The notes under the pieces are model-generated. The model did no database searches and was not told the DNA's origin. It was given only the letters and a program-made list of their open reading frames with translations. A DNA stretch of 64,000 bases from an uncultured Pseudomonadota bacterium (GTDB taxonomy: Bacteria > Pseudomonadota > Gammaproteobacteria > Burkholderiales > Thiobacillaceae). The translations under genes and the position numbers were made by a program. The stretch spans positions 1-64,000 of the forward strand of contig CAILNT010000129.1 in assembly GCA_903835655.1 (NCBI GenBank). The letters are read 5' to 3'. Positions 11,557-40,166 of the stretch are shown here, piece by piece; position 1 is the first letter of the stretch, and each line of letters opens with the position of its first letter.

Positions 11557-11591
11557 GCATCCTCCTCTGTAATCCACTGGGCAACACTATT

Positions 11592-11617: not shown

Positions 11618-11645
11618 TTTAGTTCACGCAAAACCCCACCGTCAA
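11616..11645 (-). promoter_or_regulatory. Sigma-70-type promoter for the mraZ-murG cluster
   Basis: Minus strand TTGACG at 11645-11640 (five of six bases match -35), an 18-nt spacer, and TAAAGT at 11621-11616 (four of six match -10). The -10 overlaps the first MraZ box, which fits autorepression. Confidence 0.6.
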
Positions 11646-11820
11646 GGACGAAATAGGGAAAATTTCAATCGGCTCAATGACTTACGAAATGTGGGCGATT
11701 CATCCGGTTGTTCCTATCGAATGAGCGGCCTAGGCGTGAAACTTAAAGCTCCACATTAAGTGATGCGGCGAAGTCGGGGCGAATTTGGGCCGGATAGCCG
11801 TTGGCGCTTGAGCGCCTTAC

Positions 11821-11920
11821 GAATCCGGCGTGCCCCTTGCGAGGGCAGCGGAGTCGTTGGCGGGTAACCGCCTTACGAATCCGGCGTCCTCCTTGCGAGG
11901 ACAGCGGAGTCGTTGGCGGG
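11821..11920. repeat. 56-bp repeat, two tandem copies (second truncated)
   Basis: Copies start with GAATCCGGCG at 11821 and 11877, exactly 56 bp apart. The unit contains the interrupted palindrome GGCGGGTAACCGCC and CGGAGTCG/CGAATCCG outer arms, so it can fold as a REP-like hairpin. The same unit recurs at 12184-12240 and four times at 22044-22224. There is no convincing coding region in the whole 11646-12425 spacer; the open frames there are repeat shadows. Confidence 0.8.
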
Positions 11921-11935
11921 CCAGGAGCGGTCTTC

Positions 11936-12180
11936 TGGGCGCGATCGACGTAAGGCTGGTGACTTTGGCCGGGGGTAGCCCGGCGGCTAGTTACTTTTCT
12001 TGCGCGGCCAAGAAAAGTAACCCAAAGAAGGCCGCCCCCGCTGCCGCCGACTTCCCCGTGCGTGCCTGCGTCGAGTGGGCGGAGAAAGAACTCGCTACGC
12101 TCAGACAGCTTTCTCCGGCCTTCGGCTACCCCACACGCCGCCGTCCCGCCCGGCTGCGGCAGAGGGGGAAGGATATATCT
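11936..12180. repeat. Dispersed non-coding repeat element with TTACTTTTCTTG palindrome
   Basis: Contains a perfect 13-bp inverted repeat, GTTACTTTTCTTG at 11990-12002 and its complement at 12009-12021, with a 6-nt loop. Flanking sequence of this type is familiar as a dispersed element in beta- and gammaproteobacterial genomes, often misannotated as a short hypothetical protein. It lies between copies of the 56-bp repeat, as if inserted into an older array. The boundaries are approximate. Confidence 0.45.
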
Positions 12181-25276: not shown

Positions 25277-25381
25277 GGGCTTACGGGTATCGAGTGATTG
25301 GGTGCAGGTCGGATTGGACACGATATTTTGCGCCGTAACGAGGCTTCAAGCGGAAGTCAGGTTACGCCGCACTCACCCGAC

Positions 25382-26647
25382 CTACTCGTAGTGGGTGTTG
25401 TACAACTCGGCGATGTGCGCCACCAGCTTCCTGGCCTGGGTGCGCTTGTCGGCTTTTTCCAGGACATGGCGGCCGGCCGCGTCGAGCAGGATGAGCTGCA
25501 CGGCATCGCTGCCTACGGACGCCTTGACGTCGTTGGCGACGATCAGCGGCAGATGTTTGCGGCGGCGCTTGATTTCGGCGTATTCCTCGATGTTCTCGCT
25601 CTCGGCGGCGAACCCCACGCAGAACGGTGGCTTGGGCCGGCTGCTGATACCCGCGAGGATGTCCGGGTTGGGTGCCAGTTCCAGGGTGAGGATGTGGGCG
25701 TCCTTCTTGATCTTCTGCTCGGACGGATTGAGCACGTAATAGTCGGCCACGGCGGCGACGCTGATAAAGATGTCGGCCTCATCGACGACCGCTTCGACGG
25801 CCGTGAGCATCTCCTGGGCGCTTCCCACCCGCAGGATGCGCGCCTCGCGGGGCGGTGCCAGGCAAACGCGTCCGGAAATCAGGGTGACCGAGGCGCCGGC
25901 CTCGATGGCGGCGCGAGCCACAGCGTACCCCATCTTGCCGGAACTGGCGTTGGTGAGTCCCCGCACGGCGTCGATGGCCTCATACGTGGGACCGGCGGTG
26001 ACCACCACCTTGAGGCCCTCGAACAGCTTGGGTTGGAAGTGGGCTTCCAGGGCTTCCAGGAGGAACTCGGGCTCCAGCATGCGGCCGAAGCCGACTTCAC
26101 CGCAGGCTTGCTCGCCGCTGTCCGGTCCCAGGATGGTCACGCCATCGGCGGTGAGTTGCGCAATGTTGCGTTGGGTGGCGGACGCTTCCCACATCTGCCG
26201 ATTCATGGCTGGGGCGACCAGCAGGGGACAGTCGCGGGCCAGGCACATCGTGGAGAGCAGGTCGGAGGCGGCGCCCTGCACCAGCTTGGCCAGGAAGTCG
26301 GCAGAGGCCGGCGCTACCAGGATGGCATCGGCGCCCCGCGACAGGTCGATGTGGGCCATGCCGTTGTCCACGCGTTCGTCCCAGAGGTCGCTGAACACCG
26401 GGTGGCCGGTGATGGCCTGGAAGGTGGCCGCACCCACGAAATGCCGCGCCGCTTCGCTCAATACCACCTGCACGTCGATATTTTCCTTCACCAGCAAGCG
26501 CGCCAGTTCCGCTGCCTTGTAAGCAGCCACGCCGCCGGTCACGCCCAGTACGATGCGCTTGAGATCCATGCGCTTGTCCGGCTGCTGGATTCCCCGGGTG
26601 ATGAATTCTTCCGCGGTCATCACGACCTGGCGTTGCGGCAATCCCAT
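25382..26647 (-). CDS. coaBC: Bifunctional phosphopantothenoylcysteine decarboxylase/ligase CoaBC
   Basis: Two successive steps of coenzyme A synthesis: CTP-dependent ligation of cysteine to 4'-phosphopantothenate, then decarboxylation. The N-terminal FMN-binding CoaC half contains 'VLGVTGGVAAYKAAELA' and 'LVAPAMNRQMW'; the CoaB half contains 'VVTAGPTYEAIDAVRGLTN', 'GKMGYAVA' and 'SVAAVADYY'. I used ATG 26647 because GAGGGG lies 7 nt upstream; that gives a 26-residue leader before the family start 'MDLKRIVLGVTGG' at 26569, which is the conservative alternative. Confidence 0.94.
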   Translation of the reverse strand: MGLPQRQVVMTAEEFITRGIQQPDKRMDLKRIVLGVTGGVAAYKAAELARLLVKENIDVQVVLSEAARHFVGAATFQAITGHPVFSDLWDERVDNGMAHIDLSRGADAILVAPASADFLAKLVQGAASDLLSTMCLARDCPLLVAPAMNRQMWEASATQRNIAQLTADGVTILGPDSGEQACGEVGFGRMLEPEFLLEALEAHFQPKLFEGLKVVVTAGPTYEAIDAVRGLTNASSGKMGYAVARAAIEAGASVTLISGRVCLAPPREARILRVGSAQEMLTAVEAVVDEADIFISVAAVADYYVLNPSEQKIKKDAHILTLELAPNPDILAGISSRPKPPFCVGFAAESENIEEYAEIKRRRKHLPLIVANDVKASVGSDAVQLILLDAAGRHVLEKADKRTQARKLVAHIAELYNTHYE

Positions 26648-26714
26648 GGTTCGCCCCTCGTGAGTCAACGCGGCCGATTGTAGCGCCGCCGTGCCCCTCG
26701 GCAGGATATCGGCA

Positions 26715-27254
26715 CTATGGCGACGCGCGCCCCCCGCTCACCGCAGCGAGGATGCCCCTGAGCAGGGCGGTGGGCGTGGGGGGGCAGCCGGGCACTTCCA
26801 CGTCCACCGGGATCACGTTGGCGACCTTGCCGCAGGAGGCGTAATTTTCGCCGAACATCGCGCCAACACTGCCGTGGCCACCGGCGCAATCCCCCATCGC
26901 CACCACCCATTTCGGTTCCGGCGTGGCATCAAAAGTGCGCTTCAGCGCGGTTTCCAGGTTGCGCGACACCGGGCCTGTGACCAGCAGCAGGTCGACATGC
27001 CGGGGGCTCGCGGCAAACTTCACGCCCAGGCCCTCGATGTTGTAATGCGCCCCACCCAGGGCGTGAATCTCAAGTTCACAGCCGTTGCAGGAGCCGGCGT
27101 CGACGTGACGGATGGTCACCGCCGACCCGAACACCTTAAGGATTTCCGCGTGCAGCGCCTGTTCGCACGTGCGCAGGTTCGGATCGGCCAAGGGTGCTGG
27201 CTCGGAGACGATGCCGGTCTTGAAGATCTTTTGCAGTATGAGTCGGGTGGCCAT
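26715..27254 (-). CDS. Small subunit of Hyf-like membrane complex (HyfI/NuoB type)
   Basis: 179 residues related to HycG/HyfI and complex I NuoB, which carry the 4Fe-4S cluster next to the quinone or NiFe site. All four ligand cysteines are visible: C56 and C59 in 'DAGSCNGCELEIHALGG', C123 in 'VAMGDCAGGHG' and C157 in 'EVPGCPPTPTALL'. So the electron-carrying cluster is kept although the partner large subunit has lost its metal site. ATG 27254 is chosen; in-frame codons upstream are written in 7-bp repeats. Last gene of the operon. Confidence 0.9.
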   Translation of the reverse strand: MATRLILQKIFKTGIVSEPAPLADPNLRTCEQALHAEILKVFGSAVTIRHVDAGSCNGCELEIHALGGAHYNIEGLGVKFAASPRHVDLLLVTGPVSRNLETALKRTFDATPEPKWVVAMGDCAGGHGSVGAMFGENYASCGKVANVIPVDVEVPGCPPTPTALLRGILAAVSGGRASP

Positions 27255-27282
27255 GGGAGTGGGGAGCGGTGAGCGGGGAGTG
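27255..27282. repeat. Heptamer tandem repeat between the large and small subunit genes
   Basis: GGGAGTG, GGGAGCG, GTGAGCG, GGGAGTG: four 7-bp units filling the junction directly ahead of the small-subunit start codon. Confidence 0.75.
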
Positions 27283-27299
27283 GTGTTACCGCTCACCCA

Positions 27300-28835
27300 T
27301 TACAAGTCCTGTCCGCTATAGGAAAGGTTGAACGATTTGTTGATCAGCGGGAAGTCGGGAACGATGTTGCCTAGCACGCCCACTTCCAGGAGCGGCCAGT
27401 TCTGCCAGGAGGGGTCGTGCGGGTGGACGCGGTCGAGTCGGCCCGTGGCATCGATGCGCACCGCCACCAGCACTTCGCCACGCCAGCCTTCCACCCAGCC
27501 CAGGCCTTCGCACACACCGGGTACCGCCGCGAGCGGCTGCCGGATCGCGCCGGCAGGCAGACGCCCGAGGATTTCCCGAATCAGGCGCAAGGACTCGTGG
27601 ACTTCGGCGAAACGCACTTCGGCGCGCGCCAGCACGTCGCCGCGGCGTGCAGTCGCCATGTTCACGTCCAACTGATCGTAGGGAGCTTGCGGAAACTGCG
27701 CGCGGGCATCCCAGGCCTGGGCGCTGGCGCGACCGGCCAGGCCGGTCAGCCCCAGGCGCGCGGCCATCTGTGGCTTGACGACACCGGTGTGGGTGAAACG
27801 ATCCTGAAGGGTGGCGTGTTCGTCGTAGACGGCCTTGAGTTCGCGCACCTCGGCGTCGATCGCCAGCGTCAGCGCCGCTAGTTGCGTCCGGCAAGCGTCG
27901 TCCAGATCGACGCCGACGCCGCCGGGCACGATGCAGTCGAACAAGTAGCGATGGCCGAAGCATTTTTCACACAGGCGCAGCCAGTCCTCCTTGATGCGCC
28001 AGAACTGCATGAAACCGAAGGAAAAGGCGACATCGTTGCCGAGGTAGCCGAGATCGCCAAGGTGGTTGGCGATGCGCTCGATCTCCAGGAACAGGGCGCG
28101 CAGCCAGGCGGCGCGCGCGGGAATTTCGCCGCCGCAGGCCTGCTCCACCGCCATGCAGTAGGCCCAGGCGTAGGCACTGTGGGAATCGCCCGAAACGCGC
28201 CCGGCAAGCCGGGCTCCGGTGGCGATATCCAACCCATCGAAGCGTTTTTCCACGCCCTGATGGGTGTAGCCCAGGCGCTGCTCCAGTTTGAGGACGCGCT
28301 CGCCGACGACGGAGAAGCGAAAATGCCCCGGCTCGATGACCCCGGCGTGGATGGGGCCGACCGGGATTTCGTGGACGCCGTCGCCTTCGACGCGGATGAA
28401 GGGATAGGCGTCGAATTCGGCGCGTGGCGGCTGGCCATCCGCTGCGCGCGCGGCGTAGTCGCGGCGCAACGGGAATTCGTCCTCATTCCAGGCCTTGTGG
28501 CGCAGCCATTTGCGGGCATCCACCGCGCCCGTGGCCTGGATTCCGAGCAGGTCGAAGTTGGCACGCTGCATGCGCTCGGCCTGCGGGAAGACACCGGCCA
28601 GGTCGGGGTGGGCCGGCGCCGGCGCCTCCAGGTCCGCGCTGATCCAAACGAGGCCCAGGGCGGTGATGAAGGTGACGTGGAGGGCGTAGCCCGCGCCCAG
28701 ATGGTGGTCGTCCGACCCCCAGAGAGCGACGAGCCGCCCGCCTTCCTCCTTCACGACCTGCGCGAAGGCGGGCAAGGCCTCCGCCGCGATGCGGCCGCGC
28801 CGGATGTGGGGAGCGAACGGTTGCAACTGGATCAT
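27300..28835 (-). CDS. Large subunit of Hyf-like complex lacking NiFe ligands (HyfG, NuoC-NuoD type)
   Basis: 511 residues: N-terminal NuoC-like domain (about 1-120) fused to a NuoD/HycE-like domain, as in hydrogenase-3/-4 large subunits. Family signatures 'HEIPVGPIHAGVIEPGHFRF' (155-174) and 'LGYTHQGVEKRF' are present. The first NiFe motif, normally RxCGxC, reads RVSGDS (213-218): both cysteines are replaced. The second, normally DPCxxC near the C terminus, reads NLSYSG within 'LINKSFNLSYSGQDL' at the extreme C terminus. No NiFe site can form and no C-terminal processing peptide is present, so this is not a hydrogenase. It fits the energy-converting hydrogenase-related (Ehr) group. Its start is 1 nt after the HyfF-like stop. 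Confidence 0.9.
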   Translation of the reverse strand: MIQLQPFAPHIRRGRIAAEALPAFAQVVKEEGGRLVALWGSDDHHLGAGYALHVTFITALGLVWISADLEAPAPAHPDLAGVFPQAERMQRANFDLLGIQATGAVDARKWLRHKAWNEDEFPLRRDYAARAADGQPPRAEFDAYPFIRVEGDGVHEIPVGPIHAGVIEPGHFRFSVVGERVLKLEQRLGYTHQGVEKRFDGLDIATGARLAGRVSGDSHSAYAWAYCMAVEQACGGEIPARAAWLRALFLEIERIANHLGDLGYLGNDVAFSFGFMQFWRIKEDWLRLCEKCFGHRYLFDCIVPGGVGVDLDDACRTQLAALTLAIDAEVRELKAVYDEHATLQDRFTHTGVVKPQMAARLGLTGLAGRASAQAWDARAQFPQAPYDQLDVNMATARRGDVLARAEVRFAEVHESLRLIREILGRLPAGAIRQPLAAVPGVCEGLGWVEGWRGEVLVAVRIDATGRLDRVHPHDPSWQNWPLLEVGVLGNIVPDFPLINKSFNLSYSGQDL

Positions 28836-28836
28836 G

Positions 28837-30291
28837 TCAGCCCCCCAGCAATGCCGCGGCCTGGCGATACCACATCGCCAGGTAGGGCGGAATGAACAAG
28901 CCCAGCATCAGCACCAGCCCCAGGTGCAGGAATACCGGCGTCAAGGCGGGCTGATGCGGCAGCCTGGGCAGCTCGGTCTCGCCGAACACCATGGGCTGGA
29001 CCCGGCCGAAGATGGCGGCGAAGGCCACGCCCAGCGCGATGAGCAGGAAGGGCGTGGCCCAGGCATGCTCGTGCATGGCGGTGGTAATGATCAGGAATTC
29101 GCTGGCGAACACGCCGAAAGGCGGTACTCCCAAAATGGCGATGCTACCCAACATCAGGCCCCAGCCCAGGGTGGGGTTGGTTCGGATTAGGCCGCGAATG
29201 CCGTCCATCAGCTGCGTGCCCGCGCTCTGGGTGGCATGGCCCACGGCGAAGAAGATGGCGGACTTGGTCAGGCTGTGCATGGTCATGTGCAACAGGCCGG
29301 CGAAGCTGGCGATCGGCCCTCCCATGCCGAAGGCGAAGGTGATGAGCCCCATGTGCTCGATCGAAGAATAGGCAAACATGCGCTTCACGTCGGTCTGGCG
29401 CTTGATCAGGAAGGCGGCCGTCACCACCGAGAGCAAGCCGAAACCCATCATCAGGTTGCCAGCCAGGTCGTTGCCCAGCGCGCCGTCCACCAAAACCTTG
29501 GAACGCATCACCGCATACAGGGCGACGTTGAGCAGCAGGCCGGAGAGCACGGCGGAGACCGGGGTCGGGCCTTCGGCGTGGGCATCCGGCAGCCAGTTAT
29601 GCAGCGGTGCCAGGCCCACTTTGGTGCCGTAGCCCACCAACAGGAAGACAAAGGCCAGTTGCAGCACCGTGGGTTCCAGGTGCGTCTTGACGCCGTTCAA
29701 GTGGGTCCAGAGCAGGGCGCTGCCGCCGGCACCCAGGACTCTCTCCGCCGCGAAGTAGAGCAGGATGGTGCCGAAAAGGGCCTGGGCGATGCCGACCCCG
29801 CAGAGAATGAAGTATTTCCAGGCCGCCTCCAGCGAGGCCGGAGTGCGGTACAGCGAGACCAGCAGGACGGTGGCGAGCGTGGCCGCTTCCATCGACACCC
29901 AGAGGATACCCATGTTGTTGGTGGTCAGCGCCAGCAACATGGCGGCGATGAACACCTGATAACTGCTGTGATACAAGCGCAATCGCTGGGTCGAGAGACG
30001 ACCGTGTTCCTGCTCGATGCGCATGTAGGGGCGCGAGAACAGCGACGTGGTGAAGGCCACGAAGGCCGTGAGCGCCACCAGGAATACATTGAAGGAGTCG
30101 ATGAAGAACCAGCCTTCGCCGCCCACCAGCATCGGCCCGGACGCGACGATGCGCGCCGTGAGCACACCCGCCGCGAGCAAGGTGAGCAGGCTGAACAGGG
30201 CGTTGATCTCCGGGGCGTTGCGGCGATTTCCCCAGAGCGCGAGAAACAGGCCGCCGGTGAGCGGAATGCCGAGTAAGCAGTAGATTTCCAT
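28837..30291 (-). CDS. Antiporter-like membrane subunit (HyfF type)
   Basis: 484 residues, about 14 helices, of the proton-conducting NuoL/M/N-MrpA/D family. Channel residues expected for ion transfer are kept: Glu in 'LWVSMEAATLATVLLV' and Lys in 'GYGTKVGLAPLHNWLPDAH', followed by 'GPTPVSAVLSGLLLNVALYA'. It should be able to move protons or sodium. Upstream spacer of 67 nt to the HyfE-like gene. Confidence 0.91.
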   Translation of the reverse strand: MEIYCLLGIPLTGGLFLALWGNRRNAPEINALFSLLTLLAAGVLTARIVASGPMLVGGEGWFFIDSFNVFLVALTAFVAFTTSLFSRPYMRIEQEHGRLSTQRLRLYHSSYQVFIAAMLLALTTNNMGILWVSMEAATLATVLLVSLYRTPASLEAAWKYFILCGVGIAQALFGTILLYFAAERVLGAGGSALLWTHLNGVKTHLEPTVLQLAFVFLLVGYGTKVGLAPLHNWLPDAHAEGPTPVSAVLSGLLLNVALYAVMRSKVLVDGALGNDLAGNLMMGFGLLSVVTAAFLIKRQTDVKRMFAYSSIEHMGLITFAFGMGGPIASFAGLLHMTMHSLTKSAIFFAVGHATQSAGTQLMDGIRGLIRTNPTLGWGLMLGSIAILGVPPFGVFASEFLIITTAMHEHAWATPFLLIALGVAFAAIFGRVQPMVFGETELPRLPHQPALTPVFLHLGLVLMLGLFIPPYLAMWYRQAAALLGG

Positions 30292-30358
30292 AGTGGTTCG
30301 TCGGTCGGGTTAGCGGCTTTTCGCGACATCGTCCCCGAATGGGGAAACCCGACGCCCT

Positions 30359-31021
30359 TTAGCGTTCCTTGAGTTTTTCCATGTGCTTCAGGTCCAGCGA
30401 ATCGAAAGTTTCGCGGATCTGGAAGAAGAAGATGCCCAGCACGAACACGCCCACGAGTACGTCGAGTGCGACCCCCATTTCGACGACCAGGGGCATGCCA
30501 TAGGTGGCGCTGGTGGCCGCGAAGAACAGGCCGTTTTCCATGGCCAGGAAGCCGATCACCTGGGGAATGGCCTTGCTGCGCGTGATCATCATGAGGAAAG
30601 CGAGCAGGACCGTGGCCATGGCGATCCCCAGGGTCGAGCGCGTCACCGTGCCGGACATCTGCGAGATGGGCAAGGCCAGGTTGAAGGCGAAGATCACCAG
30701 GACGATGCCGATCAGCATGGTGGTGGGAATGTTGATCATCGGCTCGACATCGCGGTCCACGTCCAGTTTCCTCACCAGGCGGTAGAAAAACCAGGGCATG
30801 GCGATGACCTTGAGCGCCAGGGTGATGCCCGCGGACCAATACAGGTGATGCTGCCCGGTGGACCCGGCTACGATGGCGGTGGAAGCCGCCAGAGCCGCGC
30901 CCTGCCAGGCAAACAGGGTGATGAGCCCGACGATGCGGCGCTGCGACAGCATGGCGAAGGAGATCAGCAGCAAGAGTGCCGCGAGCAGGTTGACCACTTG
31001 CAGATAGTAGGTCAGGGACAT
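30359..31021 (-). CDS. Hydrogenase-4 component E-like membrane subunit (HyfE type)
   Basis: 220 residues with about six to seven helices ('LLAALLLLISFAMLSQRRIV', 'IGIVLVIFAFNLALPIS'). HyfE proteins correspond to NuoK plus extra helices in complex I-like assemblies and line the ion path; 'IGFLAMENGLFFAA' is the NuoK-like segment with its buried Glu. AAGGAG 7 nt upstream fixes ATG 31021. The spacer before it contains heptamer repeats. Confidence 0.86.
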   Translation of the reverse strand: MSLTYYLQVVNLLAALLLLISFAMLSQRRIVGLITLFAWQGAALAASTAIVAGSTGQHHLYWSAGITLALKVIAMPWFFYRLVRKLDVDRDVEPMINIPTTMLIGIVLVIFAFNLALPISQMSGTVTRSTLGIAMATVLLAFLMMITRSKAIPQVIGFLAMENGLFFAATSATYGMPLVVEMGVALDVLVGVFVLGIFFFQIRETFDSLDLKHMEKLKER

Positions 31022-31035
31022 GGTGAGCTCCTTCG

Positions 31036-31063
31036 GTCGAGCGCCGAGAGCCGAGAGCCATCC
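31036..31063. repeat. Heptamer repeat in the hyfC-hyfE junction
   Basis: GTCGAGC, GCCGAGA, GCCGAGA, GCCATCC: 7-bp units starting at 31036, in the 88-nt gap between the HyfC-like stop and the HyfE-like start. Confidence 0.6.
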
Positions 31064-31109
31064 ACCCTCCGCGCGCCATGCTCCGCTGTCCACTCTCGGC
31101 GGTCTTGCA

Positions 31110-32054
31110 TCACACCTCCAGCAGAAAATGGGTCAGCATGCCCAACACCGCCAGCATGAAGGCGGTGCCGAGAAACTCGGGTGCGCGGAACAGCCTGACC
31201 TTGGCCGCGGTGGCTTCCAGCAGCGATAGCGTGGCCCCCCCGACGACCATCTTCAGCGTCAGCGCCAAAAAGGCCAGTGGCAGGGCCGCGAAATCTCCCC
31301 GCGCAGCGATGCCCCAGGGCACGAACAGGGCGATGCCCAGCGCCGAATAGGTGAACAGTTTCAGGGACACAGCCCACTCGATCAGGGCCAGGTGGCGCGC
31401 CGAATATTCCAGGATCATGGCTTCGTGGATCATGGTCAGTTCCAGATGGGTGGCGGGGTTGTCCACCGGAATGCGTGCGTTTTCCGCGGTCGACACCATC
31501 CAGAACGCAACCGCGGCGAACGCCATGCTCGGGTAGATGACGAACTCCTTGTGCGCCAGGGTTTCGACGATGGTGGGTAGCGCGGTGGAATGGGAGATCA
31601 GGCTGGCGGTGAAGAACACCATCAAGAGCGCGGGTTCCGCCAGGAAGGAGATCAGCATCTCGCGGCGTGCGCCCAGGGTGCCGAAGGAAGTGCCGATGTC
31701 CATCGCAGCCAGGGCCAGGAACACCCGCGCCAGGGCGAACACGCCGACCAGGGCAATGGCATCCGCCGCCGGCGAGAAGGCCAGGTCGTTGGCGAAGGTG
31801 GGCACGATGCCGGCGGCCAGCGCCATGCAGGCGAACACCATGTAGGGCGCGAAGCGGAACAGCGGCGAGGCCGTATGGGCGATCACCGCATCCTTGTGGA
31901 ACAGCTTCTTCAGGACGCGGTAGGGCTGCGTCAGGGGTGGCGCGCGGCGGCCTTGCAGCCAGGCGCGGCACAGGTTGACCCAGCCCAGGAGCAAAGGGGC
32001 CAACAGGATGGCGACCAGGGTCTGGATGATTTGCAGGAGGATGCCGGGAATCAT
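31110..32054 (-). CDS. NuoH-like membrane subunit (HyfC type)
   Basis: 314 residues, eight predicted helices. It anchors the peripheral arm to the membrane and, in complex I, forms the quinone chamber. Signatures: 'QPYRVLKKLFHKDAVIAHTA' near residue 45 and 'AENARIPVDNPATHLELTMI' near residue 190 (complex I-like EARxPxD/ELT motifs). GGGAGGTG 3 nt upstream supports ATG 32054. It starts 53 nt before the HyfB-like stop, measured along the minus strand. Confidence 0.9.
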   Translation of the reverse strand: MIPGILLQIIQTLVAILLAPLLLGWVNLCRAWLQGRRAPPLTQPYRVLKKLFHKDAVIAHTASPLFRFAPYMVFACMALAAGIVPTFANDLAFSPAADAIALVGVFALARVFLALAAMDIGTSFGTLGARREMLISFLAEPALLMVFFTASLISHSTALPTIVETLAHKEFVIYPSMAFAAVAFWMVSTAENARIPVDNPATHLELTMIHEAMILEYSARHLALIEWAVSLKLFTYSALGIALFVPWGIAARGDFAALPLAFLALTLKMVVGGATLSLLEATAAKVRLFRAPEFLGTAFMLAVLGMLTHFLLEV

Positions 32055-32106
32055 GTCACCTCCCATTGCCAAAGGGGGAGCATAAGCCTGTCGATACGCA
32101 TGGTTT

Positions 32107-34152
32107 TCATCGCGCCACAAATACCAGCAGGAAGATCAGCGTGGCGAAACTGTAGATCAAATACCACTGGATCCGGCCATGTTGCAGCCGTCCGGCCTGG
32201 GACGAAGCCCAGGCCACGAGAGTGGCGATGGGCCGGTAGACCAGGCCCCAGATCATGTCTCGGCTCTCTCCGCTGTAGCGGGGATGGCGCTCGAACGGGT
32301 CCGGTGTTTCCCGGTCCACCTGCATGAAGCTGCTGAAGATCTGACGGATCGGCTGGCCGAAACCTTCGGCGCTGTCCTGCATGCGCGCATCCTGTTCCGG
32401 GTAGCCGCAATCCCAGGGGTCGGCACGGCGCACGCGACCGTGGTAGACACTACGCACCCAGAGGAACACCCCCAGCAGGGTCGCGAGCACCACCGCGAAG
32501 AACACCAGAGGCGCATAGCTGGCGCGCTCGGCATCCACCGGCGCCAACAGGAACCAGCTGGGGCTCTGCGCCAGGGCGTGGCCACTGAGCATGCGCACCG
32601 CCGGCGCCAGCCAGGCGATGACCTGAGTCGGGAACAGGCCCAGCAGGATGCAACCCGTGGCCAGCCAGAGCATCCCCGCGCGCTCGCGCCAGCTCGCCTC
32701 GTGGGCGTGCTGGACGGAGTCGGAGCGAGCGACCCCCAGAAAGGTCACGCCGAAAAACTTGACCATCACGTAGGCGGCGAGGGCCGCAGCCAGAGCGACG
32801 GAGGCCGCGGCGACCGGAATCACCATGTTCAGGGAGGGCTGGGAGAGGCCTGGTGTGAGCAGGAAAGCCTGAAGCAACAACCATTCCGAGACGAAGCCGT
32901 TGAGAGGCGGCAGGCCGGCGATGGCGAGGGCACCGACCAAGGTCAGCCAGGCGGTCCAGGGCATCCACCGCATCAGGCCTCCCAGCCGGTCCATGTTGCG
33001 TTCGCCGGTGGCGTGCAGCACGGCCCCCGCGCCGGTGAACAGCAGACCCTTGAAAAAAGCGTGATTGAGTGCGTGGTAGAACATCGCGGTCAGCGCCAGC
33101 GCAGCCAGCGCGCCCTTGCCATCGGTGGCGAAGATCAGGGTGAGGCCGAAGCCGGCCAGGAGCACGCCGATGTTCTCGATGGAAGACCAGGCCAGCAGCC
33201 GCTTCATGTCCGACTGCACGGCGGCGAAGAGGACGCCATAGAGCGCGGTTACCAGACCCAGGCCCAGCGCCAGGATGCCCCACCAGGCGAAGCGCACATG
33301 GAGCAGGTCGAAGGTCACGCGCAGCAGTCCGTAGATGGCGGTCTTCAGCATGACCCCGGACATCAGCGCCGACACGGGCGCGGGCGCGGCCGGGTGCGCC
33401 TCCGGCAGCCAGACATGCAGGGGCACCAGACCGGCCTTGGCGCCGAAACCGAACAGGGCCAGAAGAAAGGCGGTCGAAGCCCAGAACGGCGTCATGCGGG
33501 CATGGCGCATGGCAGAGAAGGTGTAGGTGCCGAGGTTTCCACTGTGGTTGCCAGCGAGGTTGCCACCGAGGTTGCCTATCTCGCCGCCCTGCATGACCCC
33601 GAAACAGAGCAGCAAGGAGACCGCGCCGACGTGCGCCATGAGCAGATAGAGGAAGCCGGCGCGGCGAATCTCGGGGTCCTCGTGCTCACTGGTGACCAGG
33701 AAGTAGGAAGACAGCGCCATCAGTTCCCACACCACCATGAAGGCATAGGCGTCGTCGGCCAGCAACACCAGGAGCATGCTGGCCAGAAACAGGTGGTACT
33801 CCAGGCAGAGCAGGCGCAGCCCGTCCTGGCCTTTTCCGGGGCGGAAATAGCCGGAGGCGAACCAGCCGATACCGCCGCCGGCCAGCCCCAGCAGGGTGAC
33901 GAAGAGCGCGGAAAGGCTGTCCAGCCGCAGGTGAAAGGGCAGGTCGGGCAGGCCGATCGCCAATATCGCCACCTGCGCGGATTCGCCGGAAAAGCCGACG
34001 CCGACCAGGCCCACTCCCAGGCTGATCAGGGCGCCCAGGGGGAAAAGCATGCGTCCGAACCAGGCCGAGTGCGAGGGCAGCGCGAGACCCGCCACGCCGA
34101 GCAGCAACCAGCCGGCGACGGCGAGCATCAGGAAGTCGATGGGCAGGAGCAT
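32107..34152 (-). CDS. Antiporter-like membrane subunit with C-terminal extension (HyfB/NuoL type)
   Basis: 681 residues; core of about 14 antiporter helices plus a longer C-terminal part ending in a last helix ('LIYSFATLIFLLVFVAR'), as in HycC/HyfB. Key ion-path residues are present: Glu in 'FMVVWELMALSSYFLV' and Lys in 'FGFGAKAGLVPLHVWLPEAH'. A loop after helix 6 contains a four-fold tetrapeptide repeat (NLGG, NLAG, NHSG, NLGT). First Hyf-type gene, 94 nt after the SulP gene. Confidence 0.91.
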   Translation of the reverse strand: MLLPIDFLMLAVAGWLLLGVAGLALPSHSAWFGRMLFPLGALISLGVGLVGVGFSGESAQVAILAIGLPDLPFHLRLDSLSALFVTLLGLAGGGIGWFASGYFRPGKGQDGLRLLCLEYHLFLASMLLVLLADDAYAFMVVWELMALSSYFLVTSEHEDPEIRRAGFLYLLMAHVGAVSLLLCFGVMQGGEIGNLGGNLAGNHSGNLGTYTFSAMRHARMTPFWASTAFLLALFGFGAKAGLVPLHVWLPEAHPAAPAPVSALMSGVMLKTAIYGLLRVTFDLLHVRFAWWGILALGLGLVTALYGVLFAAVQSDMKRLLAWSSIENIGVLLAGFGLTLIFATDGKGALAALALTAMFYHALNHAFFKGLLFTGAGAVLHATGERNMDRLGGLMRWMPWTAWLTLVGALAIAGLPPLNGFVSEWLLLQAFLLTPGLSQPSLNMVIPVAAASVALAAALAAYVMVKFFGVTFLGVARSDSVQHAHEASWRERAGMLWLATGCILLGLFPTQVIAWLAPAVRMLSGHALAQSPSWFLLAPVDAERASYAPLVFFAVVLATLLGVFLWVRSVYHGRVRRADPWDCGYPEQDARMQDSAEGFGQPIRQIFSSFMQVDRETPDPFERHPRYSGESRDMIWGLVYRPIATLVAWASSQAGRLQHGRIQWYLIYSFATLIFLLVFVAR
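33531..33578. repeat. 12-bp tandem repeat, four copies, inside the HyfB-like gene
   Basis: Units at 33531, 33543, 33555 and 33567 share the core GAGGTTGCCA or close variants. Being 12 bp it keeps frame and yields a run of Asn-Leu/His-Gly/Ala/Ser-Gly/Thr tetrapeptides in a loop, so copy-number changes would be tolerated. Confidence 0.7.
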
Positions 34153-34246
34153 TCTGTTTGACAGGTTTTATCGGCACCGCTTCAGGAACGGCGTGCCGGG
34201 CGGCGCGCAGCTTATCCAGCGCACCAGCTTATTCACTATCGAGCGT

Positions 34247-35953
34247 TTAGGCGAGCACCCGGTTCAAATACTCTAGCGCTTCCGCATCCGAAGAGAAGAG
34301 GTGCTCGTGGCCGATCTTGTCCACGAGGCCGGTGCGCTCGATCACTTCCTGGACCTGTTTCTTGAAACCGCTGAAGTTCAGGGTGATGCCGCTGTCGCGA
34401 AAGCGAACGATCAGATTGGCCAGCATGTCGACGCCCGAGGCGTCGAGGTAATTGATGCCGCTGCTCTTGATCAGGATCTGCTTCACTTCCGGATTTTCCC
34501 GTTCCAGCTTCAGCAAGGCATCCTCGAAGTAGGAGACGTTGACGAAACGCAGGGCGCCATCGAAACGCAAGGCGCTCAAGCGAGGGTGCATCGGCGGCAG
34601 GTCATGGCGCTGGGCGTCGCGCAAGGTGCCTTCGTGGTGCAGGCCCAGGATCGCGATGTGGGGCCGCATCATGCGATACAGCAGCAGCGAGAGGGAAAGG
34701 AGGATGCCGGTGACGATGCCATTCTGGATGTTGGGCGCGAAGGCCAGCGTGGCCACGAAGGTGACCACGGAGGAGATGCCGTCATCGCGGTTGGCATGCC
34801 AGGCCGTGCTGAAATTCTTGAAGTTCACCAGGCTCAGCACCGCCACCATGATGATGGCCGCCAGCACTGGCTTGGGCAGGTTGTAGAGCAGCGGCGTGAA
34901 GAACAGCAGGGTGAGCATCACGAACACGGCGGAGATGACCGAAGACAGACCGGTGCGGGCATGGGTGGCCAGATTCAGAGCGGAGCGCGAGAACGAGCCG
35001 GATACCGGCATGGAATGGCTGAAGGCCGCGGCCACCTTGGCCAGGCCCTGGCCGATCAGTTCCCGGTTCTGGTCCCAGGGCTGCCGGGTCTTGATGGCGA
35101 TGACCTTGGCGCTGGACATGGCTTCCATGAAGCTGATCAGGGCGATCACGAAACCGGCGGGCAGCAGGGCGATGGTGGCGTGCCAGTCCAGCGGCGGCAC
35201 GGAGAGGCTGGGCAGGCCTTTGGGGATGGCGCCCACGACGTGCCCCCCGATACCGACGAAATCGAGGGCATAACTGGCCCAGGTGAGCAACACCACGGTG
35301 ATGAGCACGCCTGGCAGTTTGGGCGCGAACTTCTTGAAGCCCAGCAGGATTGCGATGGCGGTCGCACCGAAGGCCAGAGACATCTCATGCACGTTTCCGG
35401 CACTGGAGAGCACGCCCCAGGTGTCGATCAGGAAGTGGCTACTCTGCTGCGAGGGAATGCCCAGCAGGGTCGGCAGTTGCGACAGGCTGATGATCAGAGC
35501 CGCGGCGTTGATGAAGCCCATGAGCACGGGGTGCGAGAGGAAGTTCAGCAACACGCCCATGCGCAGCAAGCCGAAGGCGATCTGGAACAGCCCCGAGACC
35601 AGGGCCAGCAGGATCACGTAGGCGTAGAACAGCTCCGTGCCGTGTGCCGCCAGGGGGGCGATGCTGGCGGCGGTCAGCAGCGAAGTCATCGCCACCGGGC
35701 CGGTGGAGAGCTGGCGCGAGGAACCGAACAGGGCACCGATGATGGTGGGAATCAGCGAGGCATAGAGTCCGTAGTAGGCGGGAACGCCGGCCAGTTGCGC
35801 ATAGGCCAGCGCCTGCGGGATGGCTACCAGGGAAACCGTGATGCCCGCGATCAGGTCGCCCTTGATCGAGTCGGCCGAGAAGGAGAACCGCTGTAGAAAA
35901 ACCAGTGGGTTGAAAAAGGGTTTTCCTGGGTGGGGCAAGCGTTGCGTGGTCAT
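34247..35953 (-). CDS. SulP-family anion transporter with STAS domain
   Basis: 568 residues: membrane transporter domain (about 1-400, 'VAIPQALAYAQLAGVPAYYG' and 'ASLIPTIIGALFGSSRQLST' are the SulP signatures) and a C-terminal STAS domain (about 430-560, 'IKSSGINYLDASGVDMLANL'). SulP proteins carry sulfate, bicarbonate (BicA) or other anions, usually by Na+ or H+ coupling. Its place ahead of the Hyf-like genes suggests joint function, with bicarbonate or sulfate the leading candidates. ATG 35953 is used; a GTG at 35971 overlapping the upstream stop is an alternative. Confidence 0.92.
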   Translation of the reverse strand: MTTQRLPHPGKPFFNPLVFLQRFSFSADSIKGDLIAGITVSLVAIPQALAYAQLAGVPAYYGLYASLIPTIIGALFGSSRQLSTGPVAMTSLLTAASIAPLAAHGTELFYAYVILLALVSGLFQIAFGLLRMGVLLNFLSHPVLMGFINAAALIISLSQLPTLLGIPSQQSSHFLIDTWGVLSSAGNVHEMSLAFGATAIAILLGFKKFAPKLPGVLITVVLLTWASYALDFVGIGGHVVGAIPKGLPSLSVPPLDWHATIALLPAGFVIALISFMEAMSSAKVIAIKTRQPWDQNRELIGQGLAKVAAAFSHSMPVSGSFSRSALNLATHARTGLSSVISAVFVMLTLLFFTPLLYNLPKPVLAAIIMVAVLSLVNFKNFSTAWHANRDDGISSVVTFVATLAFAPNIQNGIVTGILLSLSLLLYRMMRPHIAILGLHHEGTLRDAQRHDLPPMHPRLSALRFDGALRFVNVSYFEDALLKLERENPEVKQILIKSSGINYLDASGVDMLANLIVRFRDSGITLNFSGFKKQVQEVIERTGLVDKIGHEHLFSSDAEALEYLNRVLA

Positions 35954-35967
35954 GGCGGCAGAGATCC

Positions 35968-36186
35968 TCACGGCTTCAATCGGGCCTTCGCCAGCATCGG
36001 GTTGGCGAATTCGAAAGCGGATGCATCCCGGCGGAAGTGCAACACGTTGTCCGGGCTCACGCGCTCGGGCGTCGTTTTCACCGCCACCGGGAAGTCGCGT
36101 TCGAGCACGCGATGGAATTCGCTCAAAGTGCCGACATTGGCGAAAGAGAGGCCGTTGAGGAGTCGATGGAACAGGGATTCGGACAT
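35968..36186 (-). CDS. Small uncharacterised protein leading the SulP-Hyf operon
   Basis: 72 residues beginning 'MSESLFHRLLNGLSFANVGT'; soluble, amphipathic, Phe- and Arg-rich, ending in a basic tail 'PMLAKARLKP'. I do not recognise a family. ATG 36186 lies about 25 nt after the transcript start predicted from the sigma-54 promoter, which supports it over earlier ATGs that fall within or upstream of that promoter. Its stop is next to the SulP start. It could be a regulatory or assembly subunit of the transporter. Confidence 0.6.
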   Translation of the reverse strand: MSESLFHRLLNGLSFANVGTLSEFHRVLERDFPVAVKTTPERVSPDNVLHFRRDASAFEFANPMLAKARLKP

Positions 36187-36220
36187 TTCAGTGCTCGGGA
36201 AGCGGGAGATGCGAGAACTT

Positions 36221-36237
36221 AAGCATGTTCCATGCCA
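36221..36237 (-). promoter_or_regulatory. Sigma-54 (RpoN) promoter for the SulP-Hyf operon
   Basis: Minus strand reads TGGCATGGAACATGCTT: -24 element TGGCATG and -12 element ATGCT, with the invariant GG and GC exactly 10 nt apart as in TGGCACG-N4-TTGCW. It points to the 72-residue gene 35 nt away. The divergent genes encode an NtrC-type activator that would be needed to open such a promoter. Confidence 0.75.
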
Positions 36238-36384
36238 TGAATTCATATTGTTGATTATTATGATTATTTCAGGATGGCCGCGCTTATTTCCCGGCGCCAG
36301 GGCGACGCGATGCAACAGTCGTGGGCGCTTGAATTCTCTCCCCGGGGGCGGGCATCCCTCACAATCAGCGGCCAGCCGGGCTTT

Positions 36385-36420
36385 GTTGCAAAGGTGGGCG
36401 CGTACGTTGCATACTGCAAC
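36385..36420. promoter_or_regulatory. Candidate activator-binding sites (upstream activating sequence)
   Basis: Perfect palindrome GTTGCA-TAC-TGCAAC at 36406-36420 and another GTTGCA half-site at 36385-36390, 21 bp upstream (two helical turns). They sit about 150-185 bp upstream of the sigma-54 promoter, a normal distance for NtrC-type enhancers, and directly before the kinase gene, so they may also control it. Confidence 0.5.
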
Positions 36421-36443
36421 ACCCCGTTCAGCGGCAACGCTCC

Positions 36444-37909
<1,466 letters not shown>

Positions 37910-37913
<4 letters not shown>

Positions 37914-39328
37914 CCGACACGACGCCCCGCCTCCTGATCGTCGATGACGAGGAAATCGCCCTGCGCAACCTCGAACGGGTGATGAAGAAGGCCGGCTATC
38001 GGGTCACGACCAGCAGCAGTGGCGCCCGCGCCTTGGCCCTGATCGAGATGGGCGAATTCGACCTCCTACTCAGCGACCTGCGCATGGAAGGCGTGGATGG
38101 CATGCAGTTGCTCCGTGCCTGCCGCGCGCGCCATCCGGACGTCGAAGTCATCATGATCACCGGCTTCGCCACCACGGAATCGGCGGTCAAGGCCATGAAG
38201 GAAGGGGCTTTCAACTACATCGCCAAACCCTTTCGCCTCGACGAGGTGCGCCGCGTGGTGAGCGAGGCTCTGGAAAAAAGGTCGCTGCGGCGGGAAAACC
38301 GCAGCCTCAAGGAGCAGATCGAAGTCTACGAGGGTGAGGTCCGGATCATCACCCAGAATCCCGAGATGCGCAGACTGTTGGCGCTGGCGGAGCAAATCGC
38401 CCCTTCCGACTGCAACGTTTTGATCGAGGGGGACAGCGGCACCGGCAAGGAGTTGCTGGCGCGCTACGTGCACAAGCACAGCACCCGACGCGACGGTCCC
38501 TATGTCGCGGTCAACTGCGGCGCGCTCAATGCCGACTTGCTGGCCAACGAACTCTTCGGCCATGAGCGCGAGGCCTATACGGGGGCGAGTTCCGCGCGCC
38601 GCGGCCTGATCGAGAGCGCTTCGGGCGGCACCCTGTTCCTCGACGAGGTCACCGAGATGCCGGCCGAGATGCAGGTCAAGCTGCTGCGCGTGATCCAGGA
38701 ACGCGAGGTATTGCGGGTCGGCGCCACCCGGCCGCTGCCGGTGGATATCCGCGTCATCGCCGCCAGCAACCGTATCCTCACCGAGGCCGTGGCCGCCGGC
38801 CTGCTGCGACGCGACCTCTACTACCGCCTCAATGTGGTGGGCCTGCACATCCCCTCCCTGGCGCGGCGGGCGGGCGACATACCCTTGTTGGTCAATCATT
38901 TCCTGGGAAAGCATGCGGCGCGCATGCGCAAGGGCGTACTCTGCGTGGCGCCGGAAGTGCTGGAAGTCCTGAGCCACCACGATTTTCCCGGCAACGTGCG
39001 CGAACTGGAAAATCTGGTGGAGCGCGGTGTGGCCGTGGCCAGCGGCGAACGCATCGAGTTGGCGCATCTGCCGGAAGCTTTGCGCGGCCCCTTGCCTCTG
39101 GCCTATCGCCGGGTCGATGGTGCCCTGCCAACGCTGGAGGAACAGGAGCGGCGTTATATCGAGTGGGTGATGGACACGGTCGGCGGCAACCAGACGCTGG
39201 CCGCGCAGAAATTGGGGATCAATCGGGTGTCGCTGTGGCGGAAGCTAAAGAAACAGGTCGAAGCGGCAAGGACAGGCAGTACTAACGCAGTTGTTTCCAA
39301 CCAATGGGGTATCGACGATGAAAAGTAG
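37910..39328 (+). CDS. Sigma-54-dependent response regulator (NtrC family)
   Basis: 472 residues: receiver domain (phospho-acceptor D56, acidic pair D12/D13, K106), AAA+ domain with Walker A 'GDSGTGKE' (174-181) and Walker B 'GTLFLDE' (240-246), and a Fis-type C-terminal helix-turn-helix ('NQTLAAQKLGINRVSLWRKL'). The sigma-54 contact loop, normally GAFTGA, is EAYTGA (221-226), an uncommon variant. The partner promoter is probably the divergent one at 36221-36237. The C terminus overlaps the next gene by 11 nt. Confidence 0.92.
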
Positions 39329-39665
39329 CATTCTCGTGTTGGGGCTGATGCTGTTCAGCCCCGCCTTGTACGCCGCGGGCGCAATAGCGGTGGACGATGA
39401 GGTGGGCGAAAAAGAGCCGGGTTATGGCCTGGTCTATGGCTACGGCACGCGCGATCAGGCGGGGGAAGCGGCCCTGGCCGAGTGCTACAAACAGGGCAAC
39501 GCGCATTGCCAGGTGGTGGCGCGATTCGACAAATGCGGCGCCTATGCCGCTTCGATGAAACACTACGGTGTCGGCTGGGGCGATTCCGCCGCCGCAGCCC
39601 AGAGCATGGCCATGGATGGCTGCGGCAACAGCAATTGCCGGGTTGTGCTCGTCGATTGCGAATAG
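39318..39665 (+). CDS. Exported DUF4189-like cysteine-rich protein
   Basis: 115 residues: signal peptide (SILVLGLMLFSPALYAAG) and a small Gly/Ala-rich domain with six cysteines in 'ALAECYKQGNAHCQVV', 'KCGAYA', 'DGCGNSNCRVV' and 'VDCE', the pattern of DUF4189 proteins. Function not established; the even cysteine number suggests disulfides. It overlaps the response regulator gene by 11 nt and is likely co-transcribed. Confidence 0.65.
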   Translation: MKSSILVLGLMLFSPALYAAGAIAVDDEVGEKEPGYGLVYGYGTRDQAGEAALAECYKQGNAHCQVVARFDKCGAYAASMKHYGVGWGDSAAAAQSMAMDGCGNSNCRVVLVDCE

Positions 39666-39671
39666 GCAACG

Positions 39672-39701
39672 GGACGAGGTGGGGATGCCCTCACCTCGTC
39701 C
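39672..39701. terminator. Hairpin between convergent genes
   Basis: GGACGAGGTG at 39672-39681 pairs with CACCTCGTCC at 39692-39701 (10-bp stem, 10-nt loop). It follows the DUF4189-like stop directly and faces the end of the next minus-strand gene. No T-run on either side, so it may be a processing or Rho-assisted end. Confidence 0.5.
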
Positions 39702-39758
39702 GCGCCCCTCGCTTTGGGCGCAGTCATGCTCATGACGCTTGCCCTTCCGGAGGGTGCG

Positions 39759-40166
39759 TCAACAGCGCGCAATGATGGCCAGCAGGATCGCCAGCAGCGA
39801 ACCGAAGAATCCGTTGATCCAGAACAGGCGGGTGGAGTAGTGCCGGTTTTTACGACGGGCATCCAGCCAGCGCACACTTTCTCCCAGCGTGACCAGCATG
39901 ATGACCACCAGAAGCGGCGAGAGCGTGTACAGAATTGCCAGGCGGAATTCGCTGAACTGCTCGGCGCATCCTCGCAAATCCATACGGACGCCGGCGCTGC
40001 GCGTGTAGATGTACACGATGGCCAGGAGCAAGCCGACCAGGTACAGAAACCAGACCGCGGCCAGCCGCGCGTGCGGGTCCCTCGCAACCCGAACCGCGTG
40101 CAACATCACGAGGTAAGGCTGCTTGAGTACGGCGCTGCAAAATCGTACGAATCCGCGGGTAGTCAT
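39759..40166 (-). CDS. Uncharacterised membrane protein
   Basis: 135 residues with three predicted helices ('LAAVWFLYLVGLLLAIVYIY', 'LAILYTLSPLLVVIMLVTLG', 'INGFFGSLLAILLAIIA') and basic connecting loops. I do not recognise the family. It begins 74 nt after the downstream end of the esterase gene and may be the tail of the same minus-strand group. Confidence 0.6.
   Translation of the reverse strand: MTTRGFVRFCSAVLKQPYLVMLHAVRVARDPHARLAAVWFLYLVGLLLAIVYIYTRSAGVRMDLRGCAEQFSEFRLAILYTLSPLLVVIMLVTLGESVRWLDARRKNRHYSTRLFWINGFFGSLLAILLAIIARC

Follow-up and report, generated by a model that had tools for sequence, protein, structure and literature searches.

Why does a SulP-family anion transporter stand at the head of an operon for a hydrogenase-like complex that lacks the metal ligands of a hydrogenase? 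The question is raised by a 64,000-nucleotide stretch of DNA (the window; contig CAILNT010000129.1, positions 1 to 64,000, assembly GCA_903835655.1) from an uncultured bacterium of the Thiobacillaceae, in which a SulP gene is followed by genes for the six subunits HyfB, HyfC, HyfE, HyfF, HyfG and HyfI. The host genome comprises 132 contigs and 3.67 Mb, and the nearest named match of its HyfG, with 76% identity, comes from 'Thiobacillus sp.' (locus L155), which makes the host probably a sulfur-oxidizing Thiobacillus. The answer that we favour, with a probability of about 0.6, is that the operon serves an autotrophic Thiobacillus-type bacterium in the uptake of inorganic carbon, by means of an energy-coupled complex on an Ehr/Hyf chassis that works with the SulP transporter. 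Within the host family, genes of one SulP subfamily are followed either by HyfBCEFGI or by the DabB-DabA genes of the DAB pump together with NuoL-like genes. The loci compared were drawn from 61 relatives, which include the host family f1, from a sample of 397 genomes of the phylum, and from 80 named loci.

The seven genes are encoded on the minus strand in the order SulP-HyfB-HyfC-HyfE-HyfF-HyfG-HyfI and are separated by about 1–94 bases, according to the list of open reading frames (ORFs) and to Pfam and NCBIfam matches; some ORF start positions in the series are the analyst's choice. The original prediction had placed this series here, and its position and gene types are confirmed; the 72-residue ORF that it set at the head of the series exists and is not conserved. 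The transporter (34247..35971) has the Sulfate_transp (PF00916, 5e-96) and STAS (9e-16) domains of the SulP/SLC26 proteins and scores 415 bits with TIGR00815, above the cut-off of 380; an internal ATG at 35953 is perhaps an alternative start. HyfB (32107..34152) is a NuoL/M-type antiporter-like subunit (NF005086, 868 bits, cut-off 667), HyfC (31110..about 32054) a NuoH-like membrane anchor (PF00146, NADHdh, 2e-31), and HyfF (28837..30291) a second antiporter-like subunit (NF005045, 867 bits against a cut-off of 543). The small membrane subunit HyfE (30359..31021) matches NF008556 with 89 bits, below the cut-off of 136; its orthologs are present in the syntenic clusters of relatives, with identities within the order mostly of 60–95%. 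HyfG (27300..28835) is a large subunit of the NuoC-NuoD/HycE type with Complex1_49kDa and 30kDa domains. HyfI (26715..27296) is a NuoB-like subunit (PF01058, Oxidored_q6, 1e-26) with four conserved cysteines at positions 70, 73, 137 and 171.

Of the proteins with solved structures, formate hydrogenlyase subunit 5 is closest to HyfG (1.5e-58). The positions of the NiFe ligands are occupied by Ser215, Ser218, Ser505 and Gly508 (window numbering), and the segments RVSGDS and SFNLSYSG are found where the CxxC pairs would stand. In an alignment of 158 rows from relatives, in which as in the following ones a few rows represent one genome twice, neither C-terminal ligand column contains a cysteine, and the N-terminal columns contain serine in 143 and 127 rows and cysteine in 7 and 2. 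A group 4 [NiFe] hydrogenase of the Hyd-4 or FHL-2 type was rejected as a candidate because these ligands are missing from HyfG. HyfB and HyfF do exceed the NCBIfam cut-offs for hydrogenase-4; set against the mostly serine N-terminal columns and the cysteine-free C-terminal ones, they leave a true hydrogenase with next to no credibility. The residues His38 and Tyr87 of Nqo4, which we take to be the quinone ligands of complex I, align with Ile167 and Gly216 of HyfG, so these ligands are not conserved either.

Other functional residues are retained. The four cluster cysteines of HyfI are present in 142, 142, 141 and 139 of 142 rows. In HyfB, 98% or more of 127 rows share E143, K239, K317, H364, K368 and E423; E135 and K224 of HyfF (147 rows) and the charged residues of HyfC (n = 137) are conserved as well. 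By analogy, the charged residues of the three membrane subunits would form proton paths. The complex has therefore lost the catalytic metal ligands, but the ligands for the cluster and the parts in the membrane are still present. A HyfB-C-E-F-G-I core, a ligand-free large subunit and a NuoB-like subunit with the ligands of a proximal 4Fe-4S cluster are the marks of Ehr, or non-hydrogenase Hyf, complexes, to which the complex belongs, in agreement with the original prediction. That prediction had also noted the absence of HyfA, HyfH, HyfD and formate dehydrogenase nearby. None of them was recognized in the series or its immediate flanks, the rest of the genome not having been searched for them. 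Electron entry, which had been called unusual, is so in that HyfI keeps its cluster cysteines and no ferredoxin-like subunit is encoded nearby.

The linkage of SulP to Hyf extends beyond one genome. In the compared loci 129 HyfB-HyfC pairs were found, 110 of which could be assessed because they have at least 2.5 kb of upstream sequence. For 19 of these 110, the end of a SulP gene encoded on the same strand is found at a distance of less than 2.5 kb on the upstream side of HyfB. Since about 0.2 would be expected by chance (an estimate from about 4–5 SulP genes, some of them split, per genome of about 3.3 Mb, which ignores the kinship of the loci), the linkage is not a chance one. The 19 include L059, which has a 48-residue SulP remnant only, and L037 and L156, which are from the same genome. 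They belong to family f1, to another family of the order (L050), to Rhodocyclaceae (L190), Sulfuritalea (L194, with an intervening DASS transporter) and other Betaproteobacteria (L170, L197), to Muproteobacteria (L223, with an intervening CNNM/CorC-type ORF), and to Methylococcales-type bacteria (L216, L221, L224). Pfam confirms the SulP domains in L127, L215, L216, L221, L223 and L224, of which L127 and L215 are outside the 19.

The SulP proteins that adjoin Hyf fall into at least four separated parts of a tree of 43 rows. The window SulP clusters with those of L190, L161 and L223 (support 100/100), all from Hyf loci; in L161 the SulP gene is downstream of Hyf on the opposite strand. Elsewhere in the tree, the SulP of Hyf locus L036 is sister to that of DAB locus L283 (96/91), and the two are joined next by those of DAB loci L284 and L286 (98/97). 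SulP proteins from Hyf and DAB loci interleave in this way, so a single SulP lineage has been associated with both kinds of module; SulP proteins of other lineages adjoin Hyf in Rhodocyclaceae, Muproteobacteria and Methylococcales. The sizes of the proteins differ: many related SulPs (for example L036, 12905-15019) are about 705–720 residues long and have some 130 extra residues inserted into the membrane domain behind residue ~220; this insertion is absent from the SulPs of the window, L037, L040 and L041. In L197 (576-4433) a single ORF of 1286 residues directly upstream of HyfB combines SulP and STAS with two Usp domains. A DASS/CitMHS-type transporter adjoins or lies near HyfB, replacing SulP or beside it, in L194 (2633-4567), L056 (12904-14880) and L048 (13248-15095).

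The exchange of the two modules is also seen in the distribution of their genes. DabA (PF10070) has no match in the window's own genome (G000). Among the 37 genomes of family f1 (G000-G036), 18 have the Hyf-type HyfG, 13 have DabA, one (G033) has both and seven have neither; Fisher's test gives p = 0.00026 for this exclusion, a value that, like the others for f1, ignores phylogeny. Written as both/Hyf only/DabA only/neither, the counts are 1/14/9/5 (p = 0.0015) for f1 genomes at least 90% complete and 0/13/6/4 (p = 0.002) within the host genus.

Twelve DAB regions from the 13 DabA genomes are long enough to be judged; L295 is a contig of 4.4 kb. In 10 of the 12 (L283-L289 and L291-L293), DabB-DabA is preceded by a SulP gene of the same orientation; in L290 the SulP gene has the opposite orientation, and L294 has none. 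The DAB operons of the family contain further NuoL/M-like genes after DabA, and in L284 (11856-16566) and L285 (1324-5860) there are three such genes according to Pfam (PF00361), exceeding the two-gene DAB. Neighbouring genes are shared by the two operon types, with no single locus having all of them. The next recognized gene after Hyf is coaBC in the window and L039; it is likewise the first gene recognized behind the DAB operon in L285, and in L287 it stands behind DAB plus a CsoSCA-like gene. The CsoSCA-like gene is found 3' of DAB in L286 and L287.

Regulatory genes and sites provide a further link between the operon types. A sensor histidine kinase gene with HAMP-HisKA-HATPase domains (36444..37913, plus strand, Pfam) diverges from the window operon and is followed by a gene for a sigma-54-activating response regulator of the NtrC type (37910..39328, plus strand; PF00158 at 6e-66, PF00072, PF02954). 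A similar kinase gene adjoins several Hyf and DAB operons, and a similar kinase, regulator or both lie beside SulP-DAB in L283, L284, L286, L288, L289 and L291, on the same strand as SulP in the last three. Comparison between loci indicated a sigma-54-type promoter-like site, TGGCATGGAACATGCT (36222..36237, minus strand), in the interval next to the kinase gene, with the pattern TGGCA[C/T]-N5-[C/T/A]TGC[A/T]. The site was found in all eight Hyf loci tested (the window, L034, L036, L037, L040, L041, L046 and L050), including L034, whose operon begins with a TauE-type permease instead of SulP, and in three of six DAB loci tested (L283, L284, L286). The shuffle fractions of the 11 individual loci with the site are 0.002–0.036. 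A scan of the whole window gave 106 sigma-54-type sites where 127 were expected, so that there is no excess and the signal comes from the comparison between loci.

The offset of the site is 165–167 in the Hyf loci L034, L037, L040, L041 and L046 and in the DAB loci L283 and L284. An inverted repeat, GTTGCAGTATGCAAC (36406..36420, minus strand; TTGCAN3TGCAA), is a candidate binding site of the regulator. The repeat TTGCA-N3-TGCAA is positioned at an offset of 85–88 in the window, in Hyf locus L041 and in DAB locus L284, and is absent from 8 of the 11 intervals; its background frequency over all loci is 0.003 per kb. The common offset of the promoter-like site and the inverted repeat suggest that Hyf and DAB operons can obey the same regulator.

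Genes of carbon metabolism are found beside Hyf in several relatives. A gamma-class carbonic-anhydrase-like gene is located directly upstream of HyfB in L034, L037, L044 and L056 and is truncated in L059. Its product matches 1thj, presumably the Methanosarcina enzyme Cam, at 1.2e-29, and Pfam recognizes it as Hexapep only. A CsoSCA-like gene, with PF20686 above its cut-off, adjoins HyfI in L038, L050 and L155 and is 2.6 kb away in L046. Genes for a CbbQ-type ATPase (PF08406) and a VWA protein, which is presumably CbbO, adjoin HyfI in L048 and, with the CsoSCA-like gene intervening, in L038. About 4–6 kb downstream of Hyf in L050 are genes for a CbbR-type regulator (NF045990, 271 of 450 bits) and the large subunit of RuBisCO (801 bits, cut-off 438). 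In Thiomonas (L192), HyfBCEFGI is followed directly by RuBisCO (NF010002, 909 bits) and then by CbbQ-type, VWA and CbbR-type genes; PRK13475 is taken by us to denote form II RuBisCO. The window's own genome has one RuBisCO and, on another contig, a gamma-class carbonic anhydrase. A cassette of a 109-residue membrane protein, a TauE/SafE (TSUP) permease, a double universal stress protein and the gamma-class enzyme occupies the usual place of SulP upstream of Hyf in L034 (3840-6758), L044 (13040-15947) and L059 (344-2994); in the window's own genome, similar genes are found away from Hyf (L302, 9333-11605 and 16024-16608).

The original prediction had left the choice between carbon and sulfate uptake open. 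The exchange with DAB, the carbonic anhydrases and the cbb genes point to carbon; for sulfate there is nothing beyond the resemblance of the transporter. Thiobacillus produces sulfate and acid, and it could be supposed that SulP carries this end product and Hyf balances protons, in a unit for sulfate transport or pH homeostasis. The closest solved relative of the window SulP, 'Sulfate transporter 4.1, chloroplastic' (290 bits, compared with 113 for 6ki1, which we take to be BicA), is in keeping with such a unit. The carbonic anhydrase, cbb and DAB links of Hyf loci speak against it, as does the presence of SulP beside Hyf also in Methylobacter, Methylothermaceae and Methylococcales records (L215, L216, L221, L224), and we consider it very improbable. 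The substrate of the transporter itself can hardly be read from its residues.

Across the phylum sample, Hyf is associated with autotrophy. HyfG of this class is present in 56 of the 397 genomes, RuBisCO in 82 and both in 32; RuBisCO thus occurs in 32 of 56 genomes with Hyf and in 50 of 341 without it (odds ratio 7.8, p = 5e-11). The association persists when the over-sampled family f64 is left out (18/21/28/291, p = 3e-8). HyfG was counted from 299 bits, with the partial match in G191 added; RuBisCO matches below 370 bits were dropped except for fragments in G116 and G179, and in the Hyf genome G203 a fragment with 57 bits was disregarded. The corresponding test on the 61 relatives was not used, as nearly the whole family is autotrophic (42 of 61 with RuBisCO).

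This co-occurrence is compatible with any function tied to autotrophy, and the hosts of Hyf include Gallionella, Sideroxyarcus, Mariprofundus and Thiomonas, which are iron and sulfur oxidizers. Hyf could accordingly be an electron-transfer complex of autotrophs, for reverse electron transport or linked to ferredoxin or formate, with the carbon genes as mere neighbours in an autotrophy regulon; the core hyf of Acidithiobacillus caldus has been interpreted as formate linked (PMC3826726, in the part available to us). However, such a complex would predict neither the exchange with DAB behind one SulP lineage nor the linkage to SulP proteins of at least four lineages, the quinone ligands are absent from HyfG, and a dehydrogenase was not recognized nearby. 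We regard electron transfer as the main function as improbable.

Several results weigh against the carbon-uptake reading. In HyfG, no carbonic-anhydrase zinc site can be recognized. The exclusion of DabA by Hyf is not significant in f1 outside the host genus (1/4/6/3, p = 0.13); over the 397 genomes of the phylum it is weak (4/52/67/274, p = 0.013), and among those with RuBisCO it is not significant (1/31/6/44, p = 0.16). In the 134 genomes of family f25 the counts are 3/66/18/47 (p = 0.0002), and the effect disappears without genus g269 (p = 0.31); G530-G546 were taken as this genus, which is shown for 14 of the 17, and G487, a 35% match, was not counted as Hyf (p = 0.0008 if it is). In the phylum sample DabA shows no enrichment with RuBisCO and accompanies it less often than expected, being present in 7 of 82 genomes with RuBisCO and in 64 of 315 without it. 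Twenty-four of the 56 Hyf genomes are without RuBisCO by the cut-offs used. Most of the examined Hyf loci beyond f1 and its near kin have no carbon genes beside them. In 51 Hyf regions of 5–20 kb from the phylum sample (L100-L150) there is no match to RuBisCO, CbbQ/O, gamma-class carbonic anhydrase or CsoSCA, and one SulP was found (L127). For 85 of 122 loci the nearest ORFs on the upstream side fall into 103 families, and none of the 25 commonest is a carbon family such as carbonic anhydrase or DabA; the ORFs were picked by rule, and the 37 loci left out are mostly those with an adjacent SulP.

The same holds for some properties of the neighbours. The linkage to SulP is not universal: the transporter gene was found in the 2.5 kb ahead of HyfB in no more than 19 of the 110 assessable loci. 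The window SulP is, as described above, closer to the chloroplast sulfate transporter than to 6ki1. The gamma-class protein scores below the NCBIfam cut-offs of the CcmM and carbonic anhydrase models, and the CsoSCA-like protein below that of the equivalog TIGR02701. The kinase and regulator genes beside SulP-DAB are limited to 6 of 12 regions, and the intervals from SulP to the response regulator in DAB loci L288, L289 and L291 have no strong sigma-54-type site. Because the broad tests are weak outside f1, the carbon role is best supported in this family and its near kin; elsewhere it is only suggested.

Within these bounds, the replacement of DAB by Hyf behind the same SulP lineage, partly with the same promoter-like site, argues that the two modules most likely do the same job. 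SulP would be the anion arm, most likely for bicarbonate, and HyfBCEFGI an energy-coupled membrane complex in the place of the DAB pump. By comparison with complex I, protons would pass along the conserved charged residues of HyfB, HyfF and HyfC, and their flux may be set by a redox change at a HyfI cluster, for which the ligands are observed and the cluster and its electron donor are presumed. This flux would drive or rectify the hydration of CO2 at or next to the cytoplasmic arm of HyfG and HyfI, with a carbonic anhydrase of the gamma or CsoSCA type assisting in some relatives, and bicarbonate would thereby accumulate for RuBisCO. The neighbouring two-component sigma-54 system probably turns the operon on. 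Since HyfG is without a visible zinc site and HyfI keeps its cysteines, we propose a proton-coupled, possibly Fe-S-controlled device for hydration or bicarbonate retention, with carbonic anhydrase supplied by partner genes. It may also be that Hyf merely powers SulP. The substrate, the direction of transport, the coupling chemistry and a physical contact between SulP and Hyf are parts of the proposal that we infer.

A related explanation is that Hyf is a redox-driven proton or sodium pump that keeps a local ion gradient for bicarbonate import by SulP and performs no carbon chemistry itself. The retention of the HyfI cysteines (139–142 of 142 rows) and of the Glu, Lys and His residues of the antiporter subunits would be expected of such a pump, as would the lack of a zinc-site signature in HyfG and the encoding of gamma-class and CsoSCA-like enzymes by separate genes. 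However, subunits for electron input were not recognized nearby, and the positions of the Nqo4 quinone ligands are not conserved in HyfG. The explanation also leaves unaccounted for why DAB, a hydrator of CO2 driven by the proton motive force according to the accessible part of PMC13144422, occupies the same place; we consider it unlikely. The bolder form of the carbon-uptake reading is that, next to NDH-1MS and DAB, HyfBCEFGI constitutes a third class of energy-coupled pumps for inorganic carbon, in which proton movement and Fe-S redox chemistry are coupled to one-way CO2 hydration that feeds, or works with, SulP. We put it forward tentatively, as a possibility with the odds somewhat against it.

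The cyanobacterial NDH-1MS is a CO2-hydrating complex I with CupA/CupB subunits, and thus a complex-I relative tied to CO2 hydration as is proposed here; unlike in that system, ferredoxin-docking subunits were not recognized near the window Hyf, and HyfG lacks the quinone-ligand residues. DAB resembles the Hyf operons in that it follows a SulP gene of the same subfamily in relatives, partly in the kind of kinase/sigma-54 regulator, the CsoSCA-like gene and coaBC, and in its NuoL-like proton-path subunits. It differs in that the window operon has no DabA, and so no beta-carbonic-anhydrase-like zinc site, and has the complex-I-like parts HyfC, HyfE, HyfG and HyfI with retained cluster cysteines. 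For DAB2, whose CO2 binding was examined by FTIR, a coupling of membrane potential to one-way CO2 hydration has been described (PMC13144422); this and the following statements on published work refer to the portions of the papers available to us. A carbonic anhydrase mutant of Escherichia coli is complemented by mpsAB (PMC6689103). The formate hydrogenlyases Hyd-3 and Hyd-4 of Escherichia coli have homologous HyfB, C, E, F, G and I, formate hydrogenlyase subunit 5 being nearest to HyfG; the window complex differs from them in lacking the NiFe ligands and, nearby, recognizable HyfA/H, HyfD and formate dehydrogenase. BicA-type and can-linked SulP transporters share the SulP and STAS domains and, in relatives, the linkage to carbonic anhydrase, for which the can2-sulP pair of Acidithiobacillus ferrooxidans is comparable (PMC6458275). 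The window SulP is far under the cut-off of the BicA equivalog NF050096 (143.8 of 880 bits).

The hyfBCEFGI of A. ferrooxidans comprises the same six subunits, has lost the NiFe ligands and was termed non-hydrogenase; it may, according to the same source, oxidize formate (PMC7735108). The hyf genes of A. caldus adjoin a beta-carbonic anhydrase gene and were interpreted as evolving H2 for pH and CO2 homeostasis; their core co-occurs with carbon-fixation genes (PMC3826726). The ligands are likewise lost in the Ehr complexes of comammox Nitrospira and Sulfobacillus, whose function was left unknown (PMC10284858, PMC4378227), and in the siblings of Cyanobacteria Ehr was tied to formate dehydrogenase by hypothesis (PMC6349859). 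No SulP linkage or interchange with DAB is described for these complexes in the accessible portions of the reports. A literature search that covered neither subscription papers nor preprints gave no statement that Hyf or Ehr serves carbon uptake or is linked to SulP, and the main text of a 2024 review of the CO2-concentrating toolkit (PMC10880623, term search) contains neither 'hyf' nor a word starting with 'hydrogenase'. None of the papers found makes the carbon link between Hyf, SulP and DAB that is proposed here.

Ligand-free Ehr/Hyf-type complexes occur in many bacteria, and their function was left open in the accessible parts of the literature found. The exchange of Hyf and DAB behind one SulP lineage turns it into a testable question, namely whether Hyf replaces DAB in growth at low CO2. 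If the proposal is true, the long-orphan complexes of many autotrophic Pseudomonadota would be CO2-concentrating machines, and the evolution of carbon concentration would have drawn on complex-I relatives three times or more. Chemoautotrophs (Thiobacillus, and perhaps Gallionella, zetaproteobacteria and acidithiobacilli) would then have more means of concentrating CO2 than are listed.

Between the promoter-like site and SulP lies the ORF of 72 codons (35968..36186, minus strand, ORF list). A tblastn comparison with the loci (E<=1) gave no match to it, and the 115-codon ORF that contains it has no Pfam or NCBIfam match; it is possibly a leader ORF or spurious. Matches to promoter- and terminator-like consensus sequences in 25300-39800 are no more numerous than in shuffled sequences and therefore say nothing on co-transcription. 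Downstream of HyfI on the same strand are CoaBC (25382..26668, Pfam), which also follows the DAB operon in genomes G006 and G016, and a dUTPase-type (dut-type) ORF.

Variants of the complex were observed among the compared loci. Two adjacent HyfB-like genes precede HyfC in L113, L121 and L137 of family f64, and tandem hyf clusters of different subtypes are present in L060 (G023), L178 and L179. The window's own genome has a second complex-I-like cluster (L067, G000:C112:66000-85990, positions 3131-12064). It encodes an antiporter-like protein of 1045 residues, NuoH-, NuoB-, NuoC- and NuoD-like proteins and an oxidoreductase of 607 residues with Fer4_20 and Pyr_redox_2 domains, and is followed by a rubrerythrin-like ORF. 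This cluster probably resembles an NAD(P)H- or ferredoxin-linked complex of the Mbx/Ehr type.

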